A program made the translations under genes and the position numbers. Shown piece by piece: positions 5,242 through 27,608 of a DNA stretch of 47,744 nucleotides. Origin of the DNA: Candidatus Eiseniibacteriota bacterium (GTDB taxonomy: Bacteria > Eisenbacteria > RBG-16-71-46 > CAIMUX01). The notes beneath the pieces are model-generated. The model had not been told where the DNA came from and searched no databases. It worked only from the letters and a program-made list of their open reading frames with translations. The DNA lies in the NCBI GenBank assembly GCA_903844735.1, contig CAIMUX010000126.1, positions 1 through 47,744 on the forward strand, read 5' to 3'. Position 1 is the stretch's first letter, and each line of letters starts with the position of its first letter.

Positions 5242-7245
5242 TCAGCGGATCGAGGGTCCTGGCCAGAGAAACGAAACGCGTGCGCCGCTGACCGGCTCCT
5301 GCGCCCAGTAGCGTCCACGAACGAGGTGAAGCTCGGCCATGGGCGCCGCCGCGAACTCGACCGTGCCGTTGCCTTTGGACGCTCCCTCAAGCCTGGTCAC
5401 CAGCCGGCCCTGCAAATCGAAGATCTCGCAGAAGAGGCCCGGGCGCGCGGGGCGCTCCAGGCGCAGCACCGGCGGCCCGGAGCCGTTGCCCAGGGCGAGG
5501 AGGCGCGGGCTTTCACCTTTTGTCTGCTGCACGGGGAGGCGCACGAAACCCCAGCGGGTGGCACCCTCGGGCAGCGGGGGGACCCGGGGAGCGGGAGGCT
5601 CGGCCTCGCGACGCAGGAGCGATGCCACCTGGGCCGGGTTCGGCCGCGCGTCGAACAGTCCGCCCCGCGGTCCCGCTCCGAGGAGCAGCGCGATCGCGCC
5701 CGCGACGTGCGGGCAGGCGGCGGAGGTCCCATAGAACGGGTCGAGGACCGAGTTCTGCACCCCGTCGGGGCCGAGAATCTCCGGCTTGGCTCGCCCGTCG
5801 AGGGTCGGCCCGTAGGAGCTGAACGGCTCGATAGAGCGGTCGGCCCAGGCATAGGCGCCCACGGCGACGGCGTCGGGGGAATCCGCCGGCATGGCGAGGC
5901 TGCCCTCTGAAACGCGGCTCTGTGGAGCGAGAGCACCGCTAGAAATGGGGTCGACGCGTGTGACCCGGAGGAACCGTCCCCGGGGATCTCCGAGGAGGCG
6001 GCGGATCCGAATCGTCGTGCCGGAGAGATCGTTGTTGCTGTGCAGGTGCAGCAGACGGAATGCGAACGGGTCGGGCTGCTCGTCCTGGGATGTCGCGAGG
6101 ATTCTCCGGCCGTCCGTGGCCAGAAGCTCAATCACGAAGTCGAGATCGGCGGAGTACGGCCATCGGTCCCACGTGAGCCAAACATGCAGGTCCCGACCCG
6201 CACCCGAGGCGGGAAGCAGGATCGCCTCGGAGCCGTACTCGTCGACATTGAGGGTGCGATTGGAATCCGGGTCGGACCAGTAGCCACCCCAGTACCCCTG
6301 CGCGAAATTGCCCGAAGCGTTGACCCAGAGGAGGCCGTTGTCGTGGGCGAGACGGACCACGTCATGGATCGGTCCGGTGCCATCACCGCCGCCCAGCGGC
6401 CAGGCGATCGAATGGCTGATCACCTCGACCCCCTGCTCGATGAGCCAGGTTACTGCCTGGCGCATCTCCTCCGGCGTGCCGGCATTGGTGAGGTAGAGCT
6501 CGGCTCCCGGAGCGACATCGTGCACGATCTCGGCGCACGCGGTTCCGTGGGCCTCGCCGTGGCCCGTGATGTCGGGTCCGCTCCCCTCGTCGTAGAAGGC
6601 GCGTGCCTCGACATGGGCAGGCAGTTCCGAGCCGAGGAGTTTTTCGTAGTTGAGGAAGCCTATGTCGAGGATCCCGACGCGCACGCCATCACCGCGACCG
6701 TAACGCGACCAGAACTCCGGTACGCGCATCCCGGCCAGCCCCTGCGACTCGGCGAGCGGCACCGGACGCGGCGGCAGGCCGACATGCATCACCCCGGCGT
6801 GCGCGGAGAGTGCGCGCACCTGCGCGGGGGCGATCCGCACCTGAACGCATGGACCGAGCGAGCCCTGGACGAGGCAGCCGGGGATGGCCCCCAGCCATGT
6901 GGGGGGTGCGTCGTTGACCAGCGGAATGATCGGTCCGCCCGTTTCGCTACTTTCCGGGTCCAGGGTCACCCGCACCATGATGCGGTTGTCCGCCCCAAGC
7001 ACGGGTTCGTTGCCGCGGAGCAGCGCCTTGGCCCGCCCCGCGAGGCCCGCGGCATCGAGCGAGTCGGCCGTGATTCGCCGTTCGATGGATCCCTGGATCG
7101 TCCTGGCTTTCGCGGGTGCAGGGGCACCCGAGATGAGCCCGATGACGGCGAGCGCCCCGGCGAGCAGACCGGCGAGTGCGCAGGAAACCTGTGGCGTTCG
7201 GCCGGCCGGGGTCGGAGTGTTTTCGGTGATGGCCCGGGTGTTCAT
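5242..7245 (-). CDS. Secreted S8 (subtilisin-like) serine peptidase
   Basis: A 667-residue exported protease. An N-terminal hydrophobic segment (CALAGLLAGALAVIGLISGA) followed by APAPAKA is a signal peptide. The catalytic triad is visible: Asp194 in VGILDIGF, His233 in GEAHGTACAEIV, Ser508 in YGTSAACPHVAGA; the oxyanion Asn lies in WVNASGNF. Between Asn and Ser is a beta-rich insertion of about 120 residues with DLHVWLTWDRW and a second block DLSGTTIRIRRLLG, resembling inserted beta-sandwich domains of large subtilases. The C-terminus (FCEIFDLQGRLVTRLEG...VRGRYWAQ) looks like a FlgD/type IX-type sorting domain. Start ATG 7245 follows GAGG; ATG 7257 is an in-frame alternative. It lies 59 bp after the barrel gene on the same strand. 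Confidence 0.88.
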   Translation of the reverse strand: MNTRAITENTPTPAGRTPQVSCALAGLLAGALAVIGLISGAPAPAKARTIQGSIERRITADSLDAAGLAGRAKALLRGNEPVLGADNRIMVRVTLDPESSETGGPIIPLVNDAPPTWLGAIPGCLVQGSLGPCVQVRIAPAQVRALSAHAGVMHVGLPPRPVPLAESQGLAGMRVPEFWSRYGRGDGVRVGILDIGFLNYEKLLGSELPAHVEARAFYDEGSGPDITGHGEAHGTACAEIVHDVAPGAELYLTNAGTPEEMRQAVTWLIEQGVEVISHSIAWPLGGGDGTGPIHDVVRLAHDNGLLWVNASGNFAQGYWGGYWSDPDSNRTLNVDEYGSEAILLPASGAGRDLHVWLTWDRWPYSADLDFVIELLATDGRRILATSQDEQPDPFAFRLLHLHSNNDLSGTTIRIRRLLGDPRGRFLRVTRVDPISSGALAPQSRVSEGSLAMPADSPDAVAVGAYAWADRSIEPFSSYGPTLDGRAKPEILGPDGVQNSVLDPFYGTSAACPHVAGAIALLLGAGPRGGLFDARPNPAQVASLLRREAEPPAPRVPPLPEGATRWGFVRLPVQQTKGESPRLLALGNGSGPPVLRLERPARPGLFCEIFDLQGRLVTRLEGASKGNGTVEFAAAPMAELHLVRGRYWAQEPVSGARVSFLWPGPSIR

Positions 7246-7304
7246 CGTTTGCCTCATCTTGTCGTCTAGGTCTTCTCTCGATCGGCTATCGCAATCCCGC
7301 GGAT

Positions 7305-8036
7305 TCAGCGCCAAGTCAGCTCGAACCCGAAGCTCGCGTGGGACGGGGTGGCGTTGCTGCCGCGCTCGTCGCTGCGGCCACCGGGACGCAGCACCTCCCG
7401 GTGTCCGCCGGTGAGAACGGCCCGGAAGACCAGGCGCCACCCGAGGCGCGAGTTCCCGGCCGACCCCTCGAGGCCCAGACTTGCCGTGCCCCCCGGATCG
7501 GATCGGCGCCCCTCGATGGAGGTCACGGGTTCGTCTCCGGCGTAGCGATAGTCGAACCGCTCACGACTGAAGACCAGCGCGGGGCCCGCGGCGACGAAGG
7601 CCCGTGCACGCCCCGTGCCGCCTGTCGCCAGCGCCACCGGCGTGCGAAAGATGAACTCGGCAGTGAACGGCGTCACGCTCAAGCGGCTCTTCGCCGACTC
7701 CGCCAGTCGCGCCTCGGGGGTGCCGGTACGGCGAAACCAACCCATGCGCACTTCGGCGCCGAAGCGATCGTTCACGGCATAGCCGATGCCGCCGGAGACG
7801 CCAGGGCCACCGGCATAGGTACTCCGCACCGCGCTGTCGGTGAGGAGAAACCAGATCGGCCCGGCCGCGGGGTACCAGCCGGCGGGAGGGGGCGCCGCGA
7901 GGGTGATCGAGGTCGAGGCTGCCGCGACGAGGATCGCCGTGATGACAAGCTGGGGAGTGTTGACCAGGCGCGACGGTACCCTGGCTCCGTGACCAGGGTG
8001 AACGAGGTCACGCCCCGTTCTGGGATTAGCCGGCAT
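7305..8036 (-). CDS. Small outer-membrane beta-barrel protein
   Basis: A 243-residue protein with a hydrophobic N-terminal segment (QLVITAILVAAASTSITLAA) typical of a signal peptide, then alternating polar/apolar strands with Gly and aromatic residues, and a C-terminal FGFELTWR that fits the final barrel strand. No enzyme motif is present. It resembles generic outer-membrane barrel families of the OmpA/OmpW size class, but no specific family is recognised. The start is ATG 8036 just after GGAGGAAG, which gives a long n-region of about 27 residues and tight spacing. It is the first gene of a minus-strand pair with the S8 protease, and the promoter at 8113-8142 precedes it. Confidence 0.65.
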   Translation of the reverse strand: MPANPRTGRDLVHPGHGARVPSRLVNTPQLVITAILVAAASTSITLAAPPPAGWYPAAGPIWFLLTDSAVRSTYAGGPGVSGGIGYAVNDRFGAEVRMGWFRRTGTPEARLAESAKSRLSVTPFTAEFIFRTPVALATGGTGRARAFVAAGPALVFSRERFDYRYAGDEPVTSIEGRRSDPGGTASLGLEGSAGNSRLGWRLVFRAVLTGGHREVLRPGGRSDERGSNATPSHASFGFELTWR

Positions 8037-16158: not shown

Positions 16159-16565
16159 CACGAAACGGGAGCGGGTGCGATCGTCGCGAGGGTACCGCGC
16201 GTTTCATCTCTGTATGAGGCGGGCGGGTCTTCGAGGAAAGTCCGGGCTCCGTTGGGCAGGGTGCCGGGTAACTCCCGGCGGGAGCAATCCCAGGGAAAGT
16301 GCCACAGAAAACAGACCGCCCCGGGCCTTCGCCGGGGTAAGGGTGAAACGGTGAGGTAAGAGCTCACCAGTGCCGGCGGCAACGCCGGCAGCTCGGCAAA
16401 CCCCACCCGGAGCAAGACCGAATAGGGGAGGAGAGGCTGCCCGCCTCGTTCGCACTCCCGGGTTGGTCGCTGGAGCCGTTCGGTAACGGACGGCCTAGAT
16501 AAATGACGATCCCGGGCCTCACGGTCCGGAACAGGACCCGGCTTACGGCCCGCTCTCGTTTCGTG
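16159..16565 (+). ncRNA. rnpB: RNase P RNA, bacterial type A
   Basis: The conserved core is present: GAGGAAAGTCCGGGCTCC, then GGGCAGGGTGCCGGGTAAC, AGGGTGAAACGGTGAGGTAAG, CCACCCGGAGCAAGACC with AATAGGGG, and CGGCCTAGATAAATGAC near the 3' end. The ends were set by helix P1: CACGAAACG...GAGCGGG (16159-16175) pairs with CCCGCTC...CGTTTCGTG (16549-16565) with one mismatch. The RNA is the catalytic part of the enzyme that trims tRNA 5' leaders. It lies 97 bp after the zinc-ribbon gene. Confidence 0.95.
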
Positions 16566-17795: not shown

Positions 17796-17983
17796 ACTCG
17801 CTTCACAGCAACCACCAGATGCCCATGTCCATTCTGGCACACCGCCCGCCGTCGCCGGTAGACTGCAAACCGGCGCCGGCTGTGGTACCCTCACGTGTTG
17901 GAGACGGAGGACTCGGGCGGAACCGCCCACCCATGATGCCACGCTGCAGGAGATGCTCGCACGCGCACCAAGGGGCGGCCCGC

Positions 17984-20881
17984 ATGGGGGGCGTCTCTCT
18001 GCCGGCGTCCGATCCGTTTTCGATCCGTTTGCTTTCCCGGTCCGGAGCCTGGTCCCGAGCTGGGCGCCGTGTTCGGTCCGGTGTTTGGACTCTACCATTC
18101 GTGACGCTTCTCCTCCTTGTCCCCGCGGCCACCCTTGCCCAGTACACCCCCTTCGGCAAGAACAAGGTCCACTACGCCCGTTTCGAATGGCAGGTCCTGG
18201 AGAGTCGTCACTTCCGGCTCTATCACTACCGGGAAGAGGCCGACCTCGCGAGGCAGGCGCTGGAACTGGCCGAGGAGGGGTACGTCGACCTGCGGGCCCG
18301 TTTCGCGCACGACGTAGTGCGTCCGATCCCACTGATCATCTACTCCTCCCACCTCGACTTCCAGCAGACCAACGTCACCCCGTATTTCCTTCCCGAGGGG
18401 GTCGCCGGGCTCACGGAATTCGCCCGTGGGCGTGTTCTCGTGCCGTTCGACGGGTCGCTGCACGACTTCCGTGTCACGCTGCGCCACGAGCTGGTTCATG
18501 TCTTCCAGCTCTCGCTGGAGGAACGGACCAACCGCGAGCACTTTCGGCCCGGGATCCCGGGGCTGCCGCTCTGGTTCACCGAGGGAGAGGCGGTGCACTT
18601 CTCCGAGCAGCGCGATACAGAGGCCGACATGATCCTCCGGGACATGGTGGTGGCCGGGACGTTGCCGCCCATCGGCGAGTTCTGGCGGCACGAAGGCGGC
18701 TTCACGCTCTACAAGCTCGGACAGTCGGTTCTCGACTATGTTGCCGAGACCTGGGGCGAGGACCGTCTCCGGCTCTTCCACGAACAGCTCTGGCGGCACG
18801 ACCGATTCGAGGACGTGCTGCACGACGTGCTCGGGGTCACTTCGGAGGAGCTGTCCTCGCGCTGGGCATTCCACCTGAAACAACGCTACTTTCCCTCGGT
18901 GGAGACGGCGGTCCCGAGCAGCGTCGTTTCGAAGCAACTCACAGCCGAAGGGGGCTCTGATTTCAAGCCCCTTCCGCTGCCGGCCGGACTGCCCGGCCTT
19001 GACGGCCACTTTGCGTTCCTCTCGCCGCGGAACGGTTTCACGAACATCTACACCGCGGCCGGCGCCGGCGAGAAGCCCGAACGGGAGGTGCGCGTCCTCG
19101 TGGCCGGCGAGCGAAGGGCCGAGTTCGAGTCATTTCACGCGTTTCGCAGCCGCATGGATGTCTCCGCCGACGGGCTGCTCCTCTTCGCGGCCAAGCACGA
19201 CGGCCGGGACGCGGTGAATGTCTACTCCATCGCGCGACGGCGGGTGGTGTCGCGTTATGCTTTCGCGGGACTGATCGGGCTGACATCGCCGGCCTGGGCG
19301 GGGGATACGAACCGCTTTGTCTTCAGCGGTCTCTCGCGCGAGGGCGACTCCGATCTCTTCCTCTACGATCGCGAAAAGGACAGACTCACCCGGCTTACGC
19401 GCGACCGCTATCTCGACATCGAGCCGGCTTGGTGTGCGTGGGCGAACTCCGTGGTCTGGGTGAGCGACCGCGGTCCGGCCGGCGACCGTGGGGCGCGCAA
19501 TCTCTATCTCCTCGCGCCCGGCACCGGCGAGATCCGACCCCTTACGCGTGGCGCGTGGCGCGATGCCTCGCCCGCCTGTGATTCGGTGCGGAAGGAAATC
19601 CTCTTCACGAGCGACCGGGATGGCTTTCAGGATGCCTACAGAATCGATGCCCAGGGGAGTGGGGAGCGGCTGACGCGGAGTCTCGATGCCCTGTTCGATC
19701 CGCGCCCGACTCCCGATGGTCGGGCCTTTCTCGCCACCGTTTACCGCGAGGGGCGGTTCGAGGCGCGCTCCTTCGCGCGGGCCGACACGGCGGGCGAGCC
19801 GGTGCGGTTCGCGGCATCGGCCGCCGACACGCTCCGCCCGTGGGATTGGAACACGCTGGCCGATCCGGTGGCCTCCCGCACGACGCACTACAGCCCGCGT
19901 TTCAGCCTCGACATCGCGCAGGGAGGCGTCCTGCTGGATCCCGGGATGCGCACCGGCGAGGGGCTCTCCGCCGCCTTTTCCGACATCATGGGCAACCACC
20001 TCCTGTTTGTTGGTTTGGGAAACAGCAGTTTTTCTTCCGCGTCGCGTTTTCTCGACGAGTTCTCGGCGTCGGTGGCCTACGTCAACCTTGGCCGGCGGCT
20101 CAACTACGGAGTGTCGGCCTTCCACTACGCCGGCGAATACTACGACCGGCTCGGCTATCCGTACTTCGAACGCCGCGCCGGGGTGGGGCTCATCCTCCGC
20201 TATCCGTCCAGCAAGTTCACTCGTGTCGAGAGCAACGCGTCGGTGGCCTATGGCGAGACCGACCGCACGTTCACCGGTTTCCGGCGCGCCGGACCCCTGG
20301 CGTCCCACTCGCTGGCGTGGATCCACGACACCTCGCTGTGGCTTTCCACCGGGCCGATTGATGGGCAACGGGTGAACCTCACGGCGGCCACCACCATCGA
20401 TCTGCGCGGAGGCGGGCCGGAGAATACGCTCCTCTTGGGGGAATGGAATCGCTACCTCCGTCTGGGGCTTCTGTCTTGCTACGCGGTGCGGCTGCAGGGG
20501 CGGTGGAGCGATGGAGAGAATCCGGAGGTCTTTCTTCTCGGCGGCTCACAGTCGTTGCGAGGCTGGCCGCACCACGACCTCAATGGCAAGCGGACGCTTC
20601 TGTGGAACAACGAGGTGCGCTTTCCACTGATGCGCGGCGCAGTGCTGGGGTTGCCGCCAGGAGATCTCGAGCTGCCGGGGGTACAAGGTGCGGTCTTTCT
20701 TGACGGCGGCGCCGCCTGGAACGAGGGGTGGCCCCCTCCGTGGGCGGGTTCGTACGGTGTCGGCTTTCGGATGGGTTTTGGCGGGTTTCTCGTGCTGCGG
20801 CTCGACTTCGCGCGCCGGATCGTTTTTCCCGACTGGTCGCGTTCCACGCGGACGGAGTTCTATGTCGGCTGGAATTATTAG
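17984..20881 (+). CDS. Outer-membrane fusion: HExxH peptidase, TolB-like propeller, BamA-type barrel
   Basis: A 965-residue protein with three parts. After a signal segment (LPFVTLLLLVPAATLA, about 36-53) comes a peptidase MA-like domain with LRHELVHVFQ (His168, Glu169, His172) and WFTEGEAVHF (Glu200), the gluzincin zinc-site pattern. The middle (about 300-620) has repeated blades such as FTSDRDGFQDAYRID and FLYDREKDRLTRLTRD, typical of TolB/PD40 propellers. The last 330 residues form a barrel with GGSQSLRGWPHHDLNGKRTL, the hallmark motif of Omp85/BamA, and end in FYVGWNY, a barrel-insertion signal. Start ATG 17984 after AAGGGGCGG is preferred; the frame is open to 17819. No POTRA repeats are visible. 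Function unknown; it may anchor a periplasmic protease at the outer membrane. Confidence 0.82.
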   Translation: MGGVSLPASDPFSIRLLSRSGAWSRAGRRVRSGVWTLPFVTLLLLVPAATLAQYTPFGKNKVHYARFEWQVLESRHFRLYHYREEADLARQALELAEEGYVDLRARFAHDVVRPIPLIIYSSHLDFQQTNVTPYFLPEGVAGLTEFARGRVLVPFDGSLHDFRVTLRHELVHVFQLSLEERTNREHFRPGIPGLPLWFTEGEAVHFSEQRDTEADMILRDMVVAGTLPPIGEFWRHEGGFTLYKLGQSVLDYVAETWGEDRLRLFHEQLWRHDRFEDVLHDVLGVTSEELSSRWAFHLKQRYFPSVETAVPSSVVSKQLTAEGGSDFKPLPLPAGLPGLDGHFAFLSPRNGFTNIYTAAGAGEKPEREVRVLVAGERRAEFESFHAFRSRMDVSADGLLLFAAKHDGRDAVNVYSIARRRVVSRYAFAGLIGLTSPAWAGDTNRFVFSGLSREGDSDLFLYDREKDRLTRLTRDRYLDIEPAWCAWANSVVWVSDRGPAGDRGARNLYLLAPGTGEIRPLTRGAWRDASPACDSVRKEILFTSDRDGFQDAYRIDAQGSGERLTRSLDALFDPRPTPDGRAFLATVYREGRFEARSFARADTAGEPVRFAASAADTLRPWDWNTLADPVASRTTHYSPRFSLDIAQGGVLLDPGMRTGEGLSAAFSDIMGNHLLFVGLGNSSFSSASRFLDEFSASVAYVNLGRRLNYGVSAFHYAGEYYDRLGYPYFERRAGVGLILRYPSSKFTRVESNASVAYGETDRTFTGFRRAGPLASHSLAWIHDTSLWLSTGPIDGQRVNLTAATTIDLRGGGPENTLLLGEWNRYLRLGLLSCYAVRLQGRWSDGENPEVFLLGGSQSLRGWPHHDLNGKRTLLWNNEVRFPLMRGAVLGLPPGDLELPGVQGAVFLDGGAAWNEGWPPPWAGSYGVGFRMGFGGFLVLRLDFARRIVFPDWSRSTRTEFYVGWNY

Positions 20882-22046
20882 GCGTGAGGCCCGGCGCCTG
20901 CCGGGGTGGGCGAGGCGGGCTTGGTGGTCCCGACCGTGGGGGCCCGGTGACCTACGTTCCGGGGCCGAGCGACGTTGGGGCATCCGTGCGGGCATGGTGA
21001 TCGTGCTGTTCGTCGCATCGCATCTGCCCCGCGTGGAACCCGCCGTGGCTGAGGGGACGCTCACCGGGCTCTGGTCGCGGCGGGCCGGTCGCAGCATCAC
21101 GGTTTCGCCTGCGGTGGGATCCGGGCGAGTGTTCACCGTCAGCACTGACGGCCGCGTGCAGTGTTACCGTCTTGCGGATGGGAAGCGACTCTGGGGGCAT
21201 CGCCTTAAGGACTCCGGAGAGGCAGCCCCCGCTTGGTCGCCCTCGGCCGAAGGCGGGCGGCTGTTCGTTTCCTCAGGGAACGAGGGGCGGGTGCTTCTCG
21301 CTCTCGATGGGACGCGCGGTCGCCGCCGGTGGAGCCACGAGCTCAGCTCGCCCATCACCGTGATCGCGGCGGACGATTCGGCGGTTGTCGCTCTCGTGCG
21401 GAAAGGGACGCTGGCGGCATGGCGGGCGAGCGACGGGGCCGCGCTGTGGACGCGGGCTTTGGATGGTTGGGACCCACCACCGTTTCTTCTACACGACGGA
21501 CGGATCTTCGCGGGGATGCGGCACGACTCTCTGCTTGCGCTCGACGCTCGCACCGGTGTGCCTGTCTGGCGCTCGGCCCCGGGCGGCAGGTTTGCCACCG
21601 CCCCGGTGCCGGCAACGGGGCTGCTCGCGCTGGTTGATGTCGAAGGCAGTATGGCGTGGATCGAGCCTGAGACCGGTCTGGTCGTGGCCCGCACGCAGCG
21701 CAGCGCATGGCAACTATGCGCCGGAGCCTTCTGCGAGTCCGGGCTTGTCACCGTTTCATCGGGAGGGCGCGCGGAGATGGCGGGGCGCGTGCCGGGTGCG
21801 GGAGATTGGTCCGCACCGATTGAGAACGCGGTGGTTGCCGCGCCGTTGGTGCGCCGCGGGACGGTGCTGGTAGGCGCTACTTCGGGGAACCTCTCGGCGT
21901 TGGATGCCCTGAGCGGACGGGTTCTCTGGTCATTCCAGTCGGCGGCCGGCTTCCGGGTCGGCCCGCTCGCGGCCGGCGACACTCTGCTCTTGGCCGACAC
22001 GCGTGGCACCATCCATGTGTACCTCGACGGCGCGGGGAGAGAATGA
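20862..22046 (+). CDS. PQQ-type beta-propeller protein, exported
   Basis: A 394-residue protein built from repeated blades of the form LLALDARTGVPVWRS, LSALDALSGRVLWSFQS and CYRLADGKRLWGHRL, which are PQQ/BamB-like propeller repeats. An N-terminal hydrophobic stretch (VIVLFVASHLPRVEPAVAEG) suggests export. No lipobox is seen, unlike BamB. Start ATG 20862 has GGAG four bases before it and overlaps the barrel gene by 20 bp; ATG 20995, directly before the signal segment, is the alternative. The overlap with a BamA-type barrel gene suggests the two act together at the outer membrane. Confidence 0.8.
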   Translation: MSAGIIRREARRLPGWARRAWWSRPWGPGDLRSGAERRWGIRAGMVIVLFVASHLPRVEPAVAEGTLTGLWSRRAGRSITVSPAVGSGRVFTVSTDGRVQCYRLADGKRLWGHRLKDSGEAAPAWSPSAEGGRLFVSSGNEGRVLLALDGTRGRRRWSHELSSPITVIAADDSAVVALVRKGTLAAWRASDGAALWTRALDGWDPPPFLLHDGRIFAGMRHDSLLALDARTGVPVWRSAPGGRFATAPVPATGLLALVDVEGSMAWIEPETGLVVARTQRSAWQLCAGAFCESGLVTVSSGGRAEMAGRVPGAGDWSAPIENAVVAAPLVRRGTVLVGATSGNLSALDALSGRVLWSFQSAAGFRVGPLAAGDTLLLADTRGTIHVYLDGAGRE

Positions 22047-22061
22047 GATGAGGTCGCGAGT

Positions 22062-22877
22062 ATGAAGTGGCGAGTACGGGTCCGGCCGCCTAGCTCATGG
22101 CCACGGGGCTTTGTTTCGCGGGGGATTGCGGCTTCGTGGCTCCTGCCGATGCTTCTGGCCGTCGTCCGTCTCCCCGCACATGCCTCGGGTCGGGAGCCGA
22201 TTCTCCCGGCCGCACCGGTGCTCGGATCGGCGGGTTCGGTCGTGATCCTCACGGATCCGCCGGGTGCTCGGGCCTGGATCGGCGATCGGTTTGTCGGGAC
22301 CACACCGGTGCGGGTCGACTCCCTGGCTCCGGGGCGGCTGCGAGTGGTCCTGGCCCCGATATCCCCGGCGATGCGTTGGCGGCGGCCGTGCCTGGTCTAT
22401 GCCGATCCGCGGGCCGGAATTCTCGACACGCTGCGCATCGATCTCCGCGGTGCGGACGGCAGCGTCCCCGCGGGCGACGGGCGCGTGCGGGTGGGCGCCG
22501 ACCTGGAGGCCGCGCTCAGGGCCGAGCGCCCCCCGCTCTCCCGCCTCGGAACTGTCCTGCCGATCGCCGCCCTTGGCCTCGGCGCGGCCGGAGCATGGTC
22601 GCGACATTTCGCCGACGCAGCGGACCGCGACTACCTCCGAACCGCGGATCGCGGGCCAATGGAGGACCGCCTCCGCCGCGCGGACCGGCTCGATCGTGTG
22701 TCGGTGGCCTGTTGGATCGGGGCGGAGGCTTGCCTTGCCGGGGCTGCGTGGGTCTGGTTGCGCGGGGATGGCCGGGTGCCGGTCGCTGCGTCCTTTGACG
22801 ACGAGGGTGGGGTGCGGCTCGGCCTGCGCGTCGGGGCGGAAACCCCGCCTTCCCCCGCACGACAGGGTGACCGGTGA
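22062..22877 (+). CDS. PEGA-domain membrane protein
   Basis: A 271-residue protein with an N-terminal hydrophobic segment ([17 protein letters not shown]), then a PEGA domain ([31 protein letters not shown]), a small beta fold common in envelope proteins and possibly binding surface polymers. Residues about 170-235 contain two hydrophobic segments ([14 protein letters not shown] and [18 protein letters not shown]) separated by an acidic/basic linker, so it likely spans the inner membrane. It starts 16 bp after the propeller gene, on the same strand, making a three-gene envelope cluster. Role unknown. Confidence 0.7.
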
Positions 22878-24072: not shown

Positions 24073-25140
24073 TCAGCGCACCGTGCCGCGCACGTCGATG
24101 ACGAGCTCCGGTTGTTCGGGATCGGTCGTATCGAGTCGCACCGTTTCCCGCAACCGCGTCGGTTCCTTGGCGGTGAGGGCCACGGTCAGCAGGTAATCGT
24201 TGCCATCGCGTTGGAGCGAGGTCGTGAGCCACGGAACGCTCGGGCGCGCCGCGGTGATCCGGTACTCACCCGGGCCGTCGGCTTTCAGGCGCAGCGTGCG
24301 CGTCAGCGCGTCTCCCACCCGAGATGAGCCGAAACTGATAGCTTCATCGACCGGACGGAAATAGGCGTGGATGAATCCGCGAATGCTGATGCGGTCCGAC
24401 TTCACCTTCGGGTGGTCGTAGGGGATCTCTACCCGGACATTGAAGCGTCCGAACGGCGCGTCGGGCCGGATGCGCGCCTCTACCTTCCACGCAACCGGGC
24501 CCGATAGCGGATCCTGCACCACCCTCCATCGCACCAGGTCGTCGGCGCCGACTGGCGTGTGAACGGTGAACGGCACGCCAGGCTCGGCCTTGAGGATGGT
24601 CGTGAGCAGCAGAGCACCGCCGCGGCGCACCGGGCCGAAGTCGAGGATGCGTTCGGAGACCTCCACCTCCGGCGTGACGTGCGAGAGCAAGAGAATCTCG
24701 ACCTGCGGCTCCGCCGGGTCATTGGTCTCCAGGATCACCACTTTTCGCTGATCGCCCTCGTACTCCCCGCTGTTGAAGACCACGCGGAGGGTGGTGGAAG
24801 CGCCCGGGGCGATGACGGTGTCGGCCGGTTCCGCCATCGTGCAGCCGCAGTCGGGGGTCACCTTGAGAATCCGCAGCAACTCCGTGCCGCCGTTGCTGAC
24901 GGTGAAGGTCTGCGCCCGGCTGACATGCTGCGGGATCCGACCGAAGTCGACGGTGCGCTGATCGAATCGGATCACGGGCCCCTTCATCAGGCGGGATATC
25001 GGGTCCGCCGCAGATGCGGGCATGGGAAGCGCCGCGAGGAGGGCCAGGAGCAGCGTTGGCCCGCATCGGGCGAACAGGCCGAGTGCGAAAGCCGGACGGG
25101 ACGGTGTGGTTCTCGCGGATAATGGGCGCACGAAATCCAT
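24073..25140 (-). CDS. DUF1573-domain exported protein
   Basis: A 355-residue protein with a signal peptide (LLLALLAALPMPASA) and a DUF1573 domain: VDFGRIPQ, then FTVSNGGTELLRILKVTPDC with GCT, and APGASTTLRVVFNSGEYEG. The Cys98-x-Cys100 pair is the hallmark of this Ig-like family, which is abundant in Bacteroidota and related phyla. Further similar beta units follow (ILDFGPVRRGG, ISFGSSRVGD). The reaction, if any, is unknown. Start ATG 25140 has GGAG at seven bases, shorter than the open frame. It is divergent from the S8 protease gene, and the promoter at 25173-25200 is close to ideal. Confidence 0.82.
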   Translation of the reverse strand: MDFVRPLSARTTPSRPAFALGLFARCGPTLLLALLAALPMPASAADPISRLMKGPVIRFDQRTVDFGRIPQHVSRAQTFTVSNGGTELLRILKVTPDCGCTMAEPADTVIAPGASTTLRVVFNSGEYEGDQRKVVILETNDPAEPQVEILLLSHVTPEVEVSERILDFGPVRRGGALLLTTILKAEPGVPFTVHTPVGADDLVRWRVVQDPLSGPVAWKVEARIRPDAPFGRFNVRVEIPYDHPKVKSDRISIRGFIHAYFRPVDEAISFGSSRVGDALTRTLRLKADGPGEYRITAARPSVPWLTTSLQRDGNDYLLTVALTAKEPTRLRETVRLDTTDPEQPELVIDVRGTVR

Positions 25141-25172
25141 CGAATTCTCCCCGGCTGTCGATTCTTCTCGTA

Positions 25173-25200
25173 AGTATACCCCGCCGCACGCCGGGTTCAA
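25173..25200 (-). promoter_or_regulatory. Sigma-70 promoter for DUF1573 gene
   Basis: On the minus strand TTGAAC (25200-25195), a 16-bp spacer and TATACT (25178-25173). The start should fall near 25166, giving a leader of about 26 bases before the ATG. Confidence 0.6.
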
Positions 25201-25217
25201 CTCGTCCGGCCGCTCCG

Positions 25218-25255
25218 GAGATTCGGGCTTCGGACTGGAGGCTTCGGGCTCGGAC
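25218..25255 (-). repeat. GAAGTC-type intergenic element, copy 2
   Basis: Read on the minus strand this is CCCGAAGCC, CAGTCCGAAGCCCGAATCTC, the same motif as at 10994 and 32876. It sits between the divergent promoters of the DUF1573 and S8 genes. Confidence 0.45.
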
Positions 25256-25274
25256 GATCCGCCCGGGGCAAAGC

Positions 25275-25303
25275 TTGGAAAGGCGCGGATCTGTATCTAG
25301 ACT
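25275..25303 (+). promoter_or_regulatory. Candidate promoter for the S8 protease gene
   Basis: TTGGAA at 25275-25280, a 17-bp spacer and TAGACT at 25298-25303, placing the start near 25310, about 50 bases before the ATG. Confidence 0.45.
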
Positions 25304-25358
25304 GTGGGCAGCGGCGCGGGGAGACGGCCCCGGCTCGCAACGAAAGGTGGCTCGCGTA

Positions 25359-27608
25359 ATGAAGCTCCGACCCGGTCAGGTATCTTCGAGAGTCATCCGC
25401 GCCACCCGTCGGCAGGGTTTCGTGGCTCTTGTCGCCATCGTGCTTGGCGCAGGGGCCACCTCTGTCGCCACGGCGGACCTGCCCGCCGGCCGGCCCGCGG
25501 CCGCTGGTCAACCGGGGCTCTACTGGATTTACTGGGGTTCCGGCTGGGAGGATCAGGCGGCCAAGGCCGCGGCCGCGGGGGAGCGACCCTTTGGCATCCG
25601 GGCCGAGGCGCGTCTCCGCAGAGCGGGAGCCGTTCTCTCCACGCTGGTGCCCGCGAACCGACCTGTTCCGTACGCCTTTCTTGATCATCTGCGCAGCCTC
25701 GGTGTCGAAGTTCGCTTTGCTTCACGCTTCCTGCGGGCAGCCAGCGCGTTCCTTGCCGCGGGGGATTTGGTCCGGCTTGGCAGCGATCCTGGGGTCGTCG
25801 CTCTGGTCCCGGTGCTCACCCTGCGGCGGCCCACCGAAGGCGGGCCGGACCCTTCGCATGATGGTGCGGAAGCCGAACGCGACGCTGATCGACGCTCGGG
25901 AGGGGGGCCGGTGGAGGCGCCGGATGGTGGGGCGCGTGCCGGCCTCTGGAGGCCCGCCTCGGCCGCGACCGACACGTTGCCCGATCCGCGGAACCTCACC
26001 CGCGAGGACTACGGAGCGTCGTGGCGCCAGTGCGAGCAACTCGGCGTCACCGCACTCCATCGTCTCGGCTATTCCGGCCGGGGTGTATTGGTGTGCCTGC
26101 TCGACGCGGGCTTCTATCCGTGGCACGAAGCGTTTACCCGGTCCCGGGTGCTGGCCACCTGGGATTTTGTGGAGCACGACCAGAGTGTCTGGTACGACAG
26201 TGACCGGATCGGGAGCAGGTACAACACGCCCGCGATGGAGTACCACGGAACGTACACGTTTTCCGCCCTGGGAGGGTTCTCCGCGGGTGCCCTGATCGGC
26301 CCGGCCTACCGTGCCCAGTTCGCCCTCGGCCGTACCGAGGTCGTGGAGTCCGAGACACGGATGGAGGAGGATACCTATGTCGCTGGGCTCGAGTGGGCGG
26401 ACAGCCTGGGCGCGGACATCGTGTCGACCTCGCTCGGCTACCTTCGTTTCAATGACGGCTTCGCCTACTCGCCTGACTCACTGGATGGACGGACAGCGGT
26501 GACCAGCCGCGCCGCCGCGCTGCTCGTGCGCCGCGGTGTCGTGCTCGTCACGGCCATGGGGAACGCCGGACCCCAGCCGCGCACCCTTATCACGCCGGCG
26601 GATGCCGAGAGTGTCATCGCGGTAGGGGCGGTCGACTCTCGGGGAGACGTGGCGGGGTTCAGTTCGCGCGGCCCGAACGCTCTCGGCGTGACCAAGCCGG
26701 ATGTCTGCGCTTGCGGGGTGGCGACGGCCTGCGCCGATGCCGCCGCCCGGGAGGCGTACACATCGAAGAACGGCACGTCACTGGCGACCCCGCTGATCGC
26801 CGGGCTGGTCGCGCTGTTGTTGGAGGCGCACCCCGACTGGACCCCACATCAGGTGCAGCAGGCGCTGCACCGCTCGGGTGACCAGACCCGCAACCCGGAC
26901 GATGCACGCGGCTGGGGCGTGCCTGATGCCTCCTTCGCGTTTGGTGCCATCGATCCGACCGCTTCCGAGTCTTCGCAGCTCACGGTGCGGTCCGTTTCCT
27001 GGGTCGAGGAGGAGGAATCGGGAGAAGCGGCCTTGCGCGATTCGCTGGCCAGTCCGGGCCAGCATGGCCGGTTGCGGCTCGTCCTAATGAACGAAGGTGA
27101 TCACCCTGCTCCGGCGGCCTGGCTCGCCCTCGCCGTCCCGCCGGAGGGGATCGTGGCGGACGGTGATTCCTTGCTGGTGAATTCCTTGGAGCCGGGCGCG
27201 GTGGTCAGACTGGAGGACGGACCGACTCTCGCGGTGGCTGACGATCATCCCGTTCCGCAGTTGGCTCGGCTACCGTTGCGGTTTCGCACCGACCGCGGGG
27301 TCGTCTACTACCGGACGCTGAATCTGCCCATTGTTGCTCCCACTTGGCAGGTGCGGCCCTATCCGAACCCGCTCGTCGGATCTCGCGAGCTCATGCTGGA
27401 TCTGGAGCAGCCGCACAGTGGGCCGATCAGCCTGACGGTGTTCGACGTCGCGGGGCGGCTGGTGGCGCGGCCGTTCGTCGCCCTGCCGTCGGCCTCGCGG
27501 GTGCGCCTGCACTGGACCCCTGAGGTGGCTCTGACCTCCGGGGTCTACTACCTGCGGATCGAGACCGGGGGAGGGGCGACGACTCGCCGTTTCGTGCTCC
27601 TACGCTGA
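25359..27608 (+). CDS. Secreted S8 serine peptidase with C-terminal sorting domain
   Basis: A 749-residue exported subtilase. Signal segment GFVALVAIVLGAGATSVATA, then a propeptide-like region (about 40-150) with FLDHLRSLGVEVRFASR and SDPGVVALVPV. The triad is complete: Asp about 249 in VCLLDAGF, His about 295 in EYHGTYTFS, Ser474 in NGTSLATPLIAG; the oxyanion Asn is in MGNAGPQ. The last 85 residues (YPNPLVGSRELMLDLEQP, LTVFDVAGRLV, TSGVYYLRIET) match a type IX/FlgD-like sorting domain. Start ATG 25359 follows AAGGTGG at eight bases. A Glu/Asp/Gly-rich linker lies at about 165-205. It likely degrades proteins outside the cell. Confidence 0.92.
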   Translation: MKLRPGQVSSRVIRATRRQGFVALVAIVLGAGATSVATADLPAGRPAAAGQPGLYWIYWGSGWEDQAAKAAAAGERPFGIRAEARLRRAGAVLSTLVPANRPVPYAFLDHLRSLGVEVRFASRFLRAASAFLAAGDLVRLGSDPGVVALVPVLTLRRPTEGGPDPSHDGAEAERDADRRSGGGPVEAPDGGARAGLWRPASAATDTLPDPRNLTREDYGASWRQCEQLGVTALHRLGYSGRGVLVCLLDAGFYPWHEAFTRSRVLATWDFVEHDQSVWYDSDRIGSRYNTPAMEYHGTYTFSALGGFSAGALIGPAYRAQFALGRTEVVESETRMEEDTYVAGLEWADSLGADIVSTSLGYLRFNDGFAYSPDSLDGRTAVTSRAAALLVRRGVVLVTAMGNAGPQPRTLITPADAESVIAVGAVDSRGDVAGFSSRGPNALGVTKPDVCACGVATACADAAAREAYTSKNGTSLATPLIAGLVALLLEAHPDWTPHQVQQALHRSGDQTRNPDDARGWGVPDASFAFGAIDPTASESSQLTVRSVSWVEEEESGEAALRDSLASPGQHGRLRLVLMNEGDHPAPAAWLALAVPPEGIVADGDSLLVNSLEPGAVVRLEDGPTLAVADDHPVPQLARLPLRFRTDRGVVYYRTLNLPIVAPTWQVRPYPNPLVGSRELMLDLEQPHSGPISLTVFDVAGRLVARPFVALPSASRVRLHWTPEVALTSGVYYLRIETGGGATTRRFVLLR

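Follow-up and report, generated by a model that had tools for sequence, protein, structure and literature searches.

The stretch of DNA analysed here (the window) comprises 47,744 nucleotides of a contig from Candidatus Eiseniibacteriota bacterium, and carries on its forward strand, at positions 17984-20881, one open reading frame of 965 amino acids without interruption. Translation runs from an ATG at 17984 to a stop codon at 20879-20881, and the longest open reading frame of the gene begins upstream of this ATG, at 17819. From N- to C-terminus the protein consists of a signal peptide, a gluzincin-type zinc peptidase, a TolB-like beta-propeller and a 16-strand Omp85 beta-barrel; POTRA domains are absent. 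The signal peptide (residues ~1-52, 17984-18139) is marked by a hydrophobic core, LPFVTLLLLVPAATLA, before Q53 and by an N-terminus of low pLDDT in the structural model. It is followed by the peptidase, of MA-clan gluzincin type (residues 53-307, 18140-18904), which is supported by Peptidase_MA_2 matches in relatives and by invariant residues. The propeller (residues ~316-608, 18929-19807) is defined by DPPIV_N and TolB matches, by a profile comparison with the PDB, by Foldseek and by the strands of the model, and the barrel (residues 641-963, 19904-20872) by Pfam Omp85, AlphaFold2 and the Foldseek likeness to TamA and BamA barrels.

A first-pass annotation had read the gene as this three-domain combination without POTRA domains, and had proposed a domain search and a structure prediction; both bear the reading out. 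In the window protein, the propeller is matched by Pfam DPPIV_N (26.9 bits, cut-off 22) and by NCBIfam TolB (E 1.5e-23, below the TolB cut-off), while the barrel is matched by Pfam Omp85 (PF01103; 29.8 bits, cut-off 24) and NCBIfam also gives an Omp85 family match. Peptidase_MA_2 is sub-threshold on the window protein alone (17 vs 32.4 bits, E 0.005), but 37 out of 43 relatives match it, with E-values down to 6.9e-14. PD40 is found in 41 and Omp85 in 31 of these 43 proteins, none of which gives a match to the POTRA families in the profile scan. The same scan finds no M48 or TPR family in the window protein or in the 43 relatives. Searched against the PDB, a profile built from 97 relatives retrieves TolB structures at 2e-20, while its barrel part retrieves, more weakly, BamA, TamA and the POTRA-domain protein 9ccg (Fusobacterium BamA). 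A frame artefact or a join of two genes is ruled out, as the same domain order recurs in 170 full-length relatives.

The AlphaFold2 model, for which the window protein was supplied together with an alignment of 97 sequences, has a mean pLDDT of 88.9 and a pTM of 0.87. Its peptidase domain is mainly helical, with HELVH lying within helix 159-186 and Glu200 within helix 196-207, and nothing resembling a POTRA domain separates the propeller from the barrel. The sixteen barrel strands comprise residues 641-651, 657-666, 672-680, 693-701, 707-720, 726-741, 746-761 and 766-782 (strands 1-8), and 790-806, 811-826, 832-843, 870-890, 893-912, 921-932, 936-947 and 950-963 (strands 9-16); most of these blocks have a pLDDT above 85. 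GGSQSLRGW, recognised at first pass together with a C-terminal aromatic residue, occupies residues 853-861 (20540-20566) in the loop that joins strands 11 and 12, and the aromatic residue is Tyr965. The L6 loop of BamA sits in the equivalent position, between strands 11 and 12. Within the motif, R859 is invariant in 97 proteins and G860 is kept in at least 90%. Foldseek ranks TolB first for the model, followed by TamA and BamA (TMt 0.67 for TamA with the barrel only), and none of the 50 entries listed covers all three domains.

The family is widespread. In a profile search with a limit of E 1e-60, it is found in 46 of the 47 genomes from the window's class and in 49 of 147 genomes outside its phylum, both counts pooling the two lineages described below. 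At least 508 relatives are present among named contigs, the best 80 of which come from Eisenbacteria, Zixibacteria, Glassbacteria, Calditrichota, KSB1, Gemmatimonadota, Ignavibacteria, Latescibacteria, Marinimicrobia, Rhodothermales, Krumholzibacteria, unplaced Bacteroidetes bins and one bin labelled Caldisericaceae. In a tree of 175 sequences, 103 members including the window protein form clade A (support 0.986), which is spread over FCB-type phyla; the remainder include longer paralogues. One such paralogue, of ~1,100 amino acids with the same three domains, is encoded in the window's own genome (G000:C119:41282-44482) away from any BamB/PEGA operon, and paralogues of this kind are present almost throughout the class. 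A plasmid- or phage-borne origin was rejected, since there is no phage match and the single plasmid match is a barrel-less protein: plasmid pSR116 of Salinibacter ruber (L225:3905-5806) encodes a 633-residue 'basic secretory protein-like protein' that aligns to peptidase and propeller only, and whose length is insufficient for a barrel.

The zinc-site residues noted at first pass, HELVH and the glutamate of a downstream TEGEAVH, are located at residues 168-172 (18485-18499) and 199-205, with E200 (18581-18583) as the third ligand. Among 97 clade-A proteins, which are 30-55% identical to the window protein, H168, E169, H172 and E200 do not vary. HExxH and the third-ligand glutamate are kept in 169 of the 170 full-length relatives, across both lineages (163 fit a strict pattern, six more show HExxH and EG by eye, and one is without HExxH). 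In the 80-locus set, one of the two selection patterns spans the E200 region, and conservation of E200 there is partly by construction; HExxH is in neither pattern, and the genome set selected by profile is free of this bias. Judged from the alignments, conservation of the catalytic residues exceeds chance. The peptidase is also the most conserved domain, with a column entropy of 1.63 compared with 1.84 for the barrel and 2.26 for the propeller; it is a putative active protease. The relative without HExxH has 1062 amino acids (L188:3-3188, + strand) and is possibly an inactive partner, a second, active-looking relative being encoded close by in the same locus.

Two further genes follow on the same strand. 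The gene at 20862-22046 encodes a BamB-like PQQ propeller (PF13360, 113 bits, cut-off 27.6), and that at 22062-22877 a PEGA-domain protein (PF08308, 26.4 bits, cut-off 20.8) with an N-terminal hydrophobic segment and a C-terminal hydrophobic hairpin in its hydropathy profile. The order of these genes and the overlap of the first with the barrel gene are as originally annotated, but the overlap is probably 20 nt and not the 190 nt of the open reading frames: the probable start of the BamB-like gene is the ATG at 20862, preceded by GGAG at 20854-20857. The suspected link to these neighbours holds across phyla, and in one clade only. Where 1.5 kb or more of downstream sequence is available, a same-strand BamB-like PQQ propeller comes next in 65 of 80 clade-A loci, compared with none of 61 others; with 2.5 kb, a PEGA gene is present in 46 of 73 clade-A loci, 42 of them with both partners and four with PEGA alone, while 17 have BamB alone and 10 neither. 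By parsimony on the tree, the BamB-like neighbour requires seven changes, as against at least 37 with shuffled labels. Its start codon overlaps the stop region of the barrel gene at 52 of 79 loci (by 1 nt in 33, 4 nt in eight and 13 nt in 11). The downstream proteins scanned match PQQ_2 (BamB) in 58 of 61 cases, and the third genes match PEGA in 22 of 39; hydrophobic segments flank a conserved AD..Y..Y stretch in 42 of 51 PEGA-type proteins. A lipobox, by strict pattern, is found in the BamB-like protein at 52 of 79 clade-A loci and is absent from that of the window, as from its own lineage. In the longer-paralogue lineage no partner family occurs in more than 12 of 67 loci. The composition of the operon also varies: in several Zixibacteria (L120:9902-12094, L125:9890-12055) the PEGA gene is replaced in third place by a gene for a ~730-residue HEAT-repeat protein, and in one related family the PEGA gene (L048:8782-9663) directly follows the barrel gene, with no BamB-like gene present. 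Synteny beyond these genes (rpoD, aldolase, DUF1573) is confined to the same order and was set aside as uninformative about function.

The same genome encodes an ordinary BamA with five POTRA matches as a separate gene (C119:106530-108785), which rules out replacement of BamA by the peptidase-propeller-barrel protein. Three further POTRA-matching frames lie on contigs C47, C79 and C15, and two of these include an Omp85 barrel; some shorter frames match Omp85 but no POTRA family. The BamB-like protein of the operon is the only stand-alone PQQ_2 protein of BamB size found in this genome, the remaining PQQ_2 matches lying in frames of 762-1338 residues.

The novelty implied at first pass is smaller than it seemed, as a propeller-fused, POTRA-less 'WD40-Omp85' was published in 2014 (Heinz & Lithgow; PMC4104836) and likened by its authors to a fusion of BamA and BamB. 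This is the closest described kind: judged by the main text of PMC4104836, a TolB-like WD40 propeller directly precedes the Omp85 barrel with no POTRA, as it does here. That main-text description contains neither a zinc peptidase nor an operon, whereas here an N-terminal gluzincin domain is near-universal and, in clade A, a BamB-like protein is encoded by a gene of its own. The separate 'Metallo' subfamily of the same authors is PF00149, a different domain from the gluzincin. Several Omp85 subfamilies, including the WD40-like one, were still uncharacterised in 2024 (PMC11116518). In the literature searched, mostly that outside subscription journals, the architecture was confined to PMC4104836 and a passing mention in PMC11116518, and the peptidase domain, the division into two lineages, the operon and the near-universal active site did not come up.

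With BamA and TamA, the nearest solved barrels, the protein shares sixteen strands, the RG motif of L6 and the C-terminal aromatic residue; it differs in having a peptidase and a propeller in place of POTRA domains, in a genome with a separate five-POTRA BamA. BepA (YfgC) resembles it in its zinc-peptidase motif and in the role proposed here at an Omp85 barrel, although BepA is a soluble M48-TPR protein and the present domain, of another MA-clan family, is fused to the barrel. The patatin-Omp85 protein PlpD likewise has an enzyme N-terminal to an Omp85 barrel, but that enzyme is a lipase, and PlpD has one POTRA and no propeller. The downstream protein is like BamB in its PQQ_2 propeller and its size, and at many clade-A loci it has a lipobox, yet it falls below the NCBIfam BamB equivalog cut-off (118.9 bits, cut-off 285.2) and is encoded with the peptidase-propeller-barrel protein. 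Finally, the Bacteroidota BAM is an FCB-specific outer-membrane assembly machinery whose distribution likewise tracks SprA; the paper on the F. johnsoniae complex reports BamG and BamH across FCB phyla, correlated with SprA in a similar way, and its text mentions neither a peptidase or propeller nor BamB (PMC12611786).

In BamA, TamA and FhaC, the side N-terminal to strand 1 is periplasmic. The peptidase and propeller precede strand 1 of the barrel, and we therefore infer a periplasmic location for them. The first-pass annotation had suggested 'a surface or periplasmic' device for quality control or secretion; the periplasmic side is now favoured and the surface is less likely, given this topology and the precedent of PlpD, while the function as first guessed is reasonable but unproven. 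PlpD, the sole comparable enzyme-Omp85 protein studied, has a periplasmic enzyme domain, and its authors propose that novel functions arose by reuse of the Omp85 scaffold (PMC11116518).

Our preferred reading, to which we give a probability of about 0.45, is that an Omp85 barrel, carrying a BepA-like protease in the same polypeptide and paired with a dedicated BamB-like lipoprotein, forms a periplasm-facing module for outer-membrane assembly or quality control. The barrel would sit in the outer membrane, a zinc peptidase in the periplasm and a TolB-like propeller taking the place of POTRA domains, and together with the BamB-like propeller lipoprotein and the PEGA protein, possibly held in the inner membrane by its C-terminal hydrophobic hairpin, would make up a complex in the envelope apart from the ordinary BAM complex. 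The propellers might dock client proteins, or the BAM or Tol machinery, at the periplasmic face; the barrel with its L6 loop could serve as a membrane-perturbing or client-engaging platform; and the peptidase may trim or remove clients stalled at the barrel, in a manner resembling that of free BepA at the E. coli BAM complex, where this zinc peptidase can either promote or degrade LptD (PMC8423444). Against the assembly module, an Omp85 barrel is not necessarily an assembly factor, given the reuse of the scaffold that the PlpD authors propose; the BamB-like protein of the window's own lineage has no lipobox, and 15 clade-A loci are without a BamB-like neighbour. Furthermore, the second lineage keeps the three domains without the operon, and the three-domain protein can therefore act without these partners. 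A bolder form of this reading, which we consider rather doubtful, is that the three genes constitute a further outer-membrane assembly machine beside BAM, TAM and TpsB, a module conserved in FCB-type phyla in which folding and proteolytic triage fall to one polypeptide and the sole BamB-like protein of the genome works with this barrel and not with BamA.

Other functions can be envisaged for the same parts. A maturation protease of type IX secretion, or of another FCB-specific export route, would cut exported proteins or assembly factors of the large SprA-type translocon. Outside the phylum, SprA is found in 9 of the 10 genomes assigned to clade A and in 17 of 137 others (Fisher p 4e-7), with clade-A assignment covering the genomes whose matches were retrieved, and a subtilase in the window (25014-27608) has a sub-threshold match to the T9SS C-terminal sorting domain Por_Secre_tail (21.5 vs 27 bits). 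SprA is, however, a hallmark of FCB bacteria, so that its co-distribution is confounded by shared ancestry; one clade-A genome (G107) is without a SprA match, the window's own genome has no SprA at 1e-10, and no T9SS genes recur as neighbours, leaving this explanation unlikely. A dedicated translocator or maturase of the two-partner-secretion type, handling a single class of cargo that its peptidase would cleave, is very unlikely: the weak match to a ShlB/FhaC-type barrel (15.9 bits, cut-off 22.7) is set against TamA and BamA as the best structural matches, and no large exoprotein gene recurs nearby.

Surface display, in which the barrel would translocate the two N-terminal domains or present them on the outside of the cell to exploit nutrients or to attack, is consistent with the translocation of polypeptides by many Omp85 proteins and with the barrel-less peptidase-propeller protein on the Salinibacter plasmid. 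The position of both domains ahead of strand 1 and the predicted periplasmic or membrane nature of the operon partners make it distinctly improbable, as does PlpD, for which surface display was long assumed until its enzyme domain turned out to be periplasmic (PMC11116518). A Tol-Pal-like tether is no more probable. Here the TolB-like propeller and the PEGA protein would link the outer membrane to the inner membrane or peptidoglycan, leaving the peptidase a regulatory role and the barrel that of an anchor; TolB is indeed nearest to the propeller and the PEGA protein has its C-terminal hairpin, but a peptidase that is the most conserved domain is odd in a mere tether, and no Pal- or TolA-like gene is prominent among the recurring neighbours.

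These results would provide one of the uncharacterised Omp85 subfamilies with a catalytic domain, a known taxonomic range, two distinct lineages and an operon, making its function testable. If the assembly or quality-control module does triage outer-membrane proteins, it would show how assembly is linked to proteolysis in FCB bacteria, in which BAM is unlike the E. coli complex.

Elsewhere in the window, a class A RNase P RNA (301.7 bits) lies at 16167-16561 between a zinc-ribbon gene and EF-P, genes for tRNA-Met (15038) and tRNA-Val (15172) follow rpoD, and a second subtilase frame is present on the minus strand at 5242-7440.
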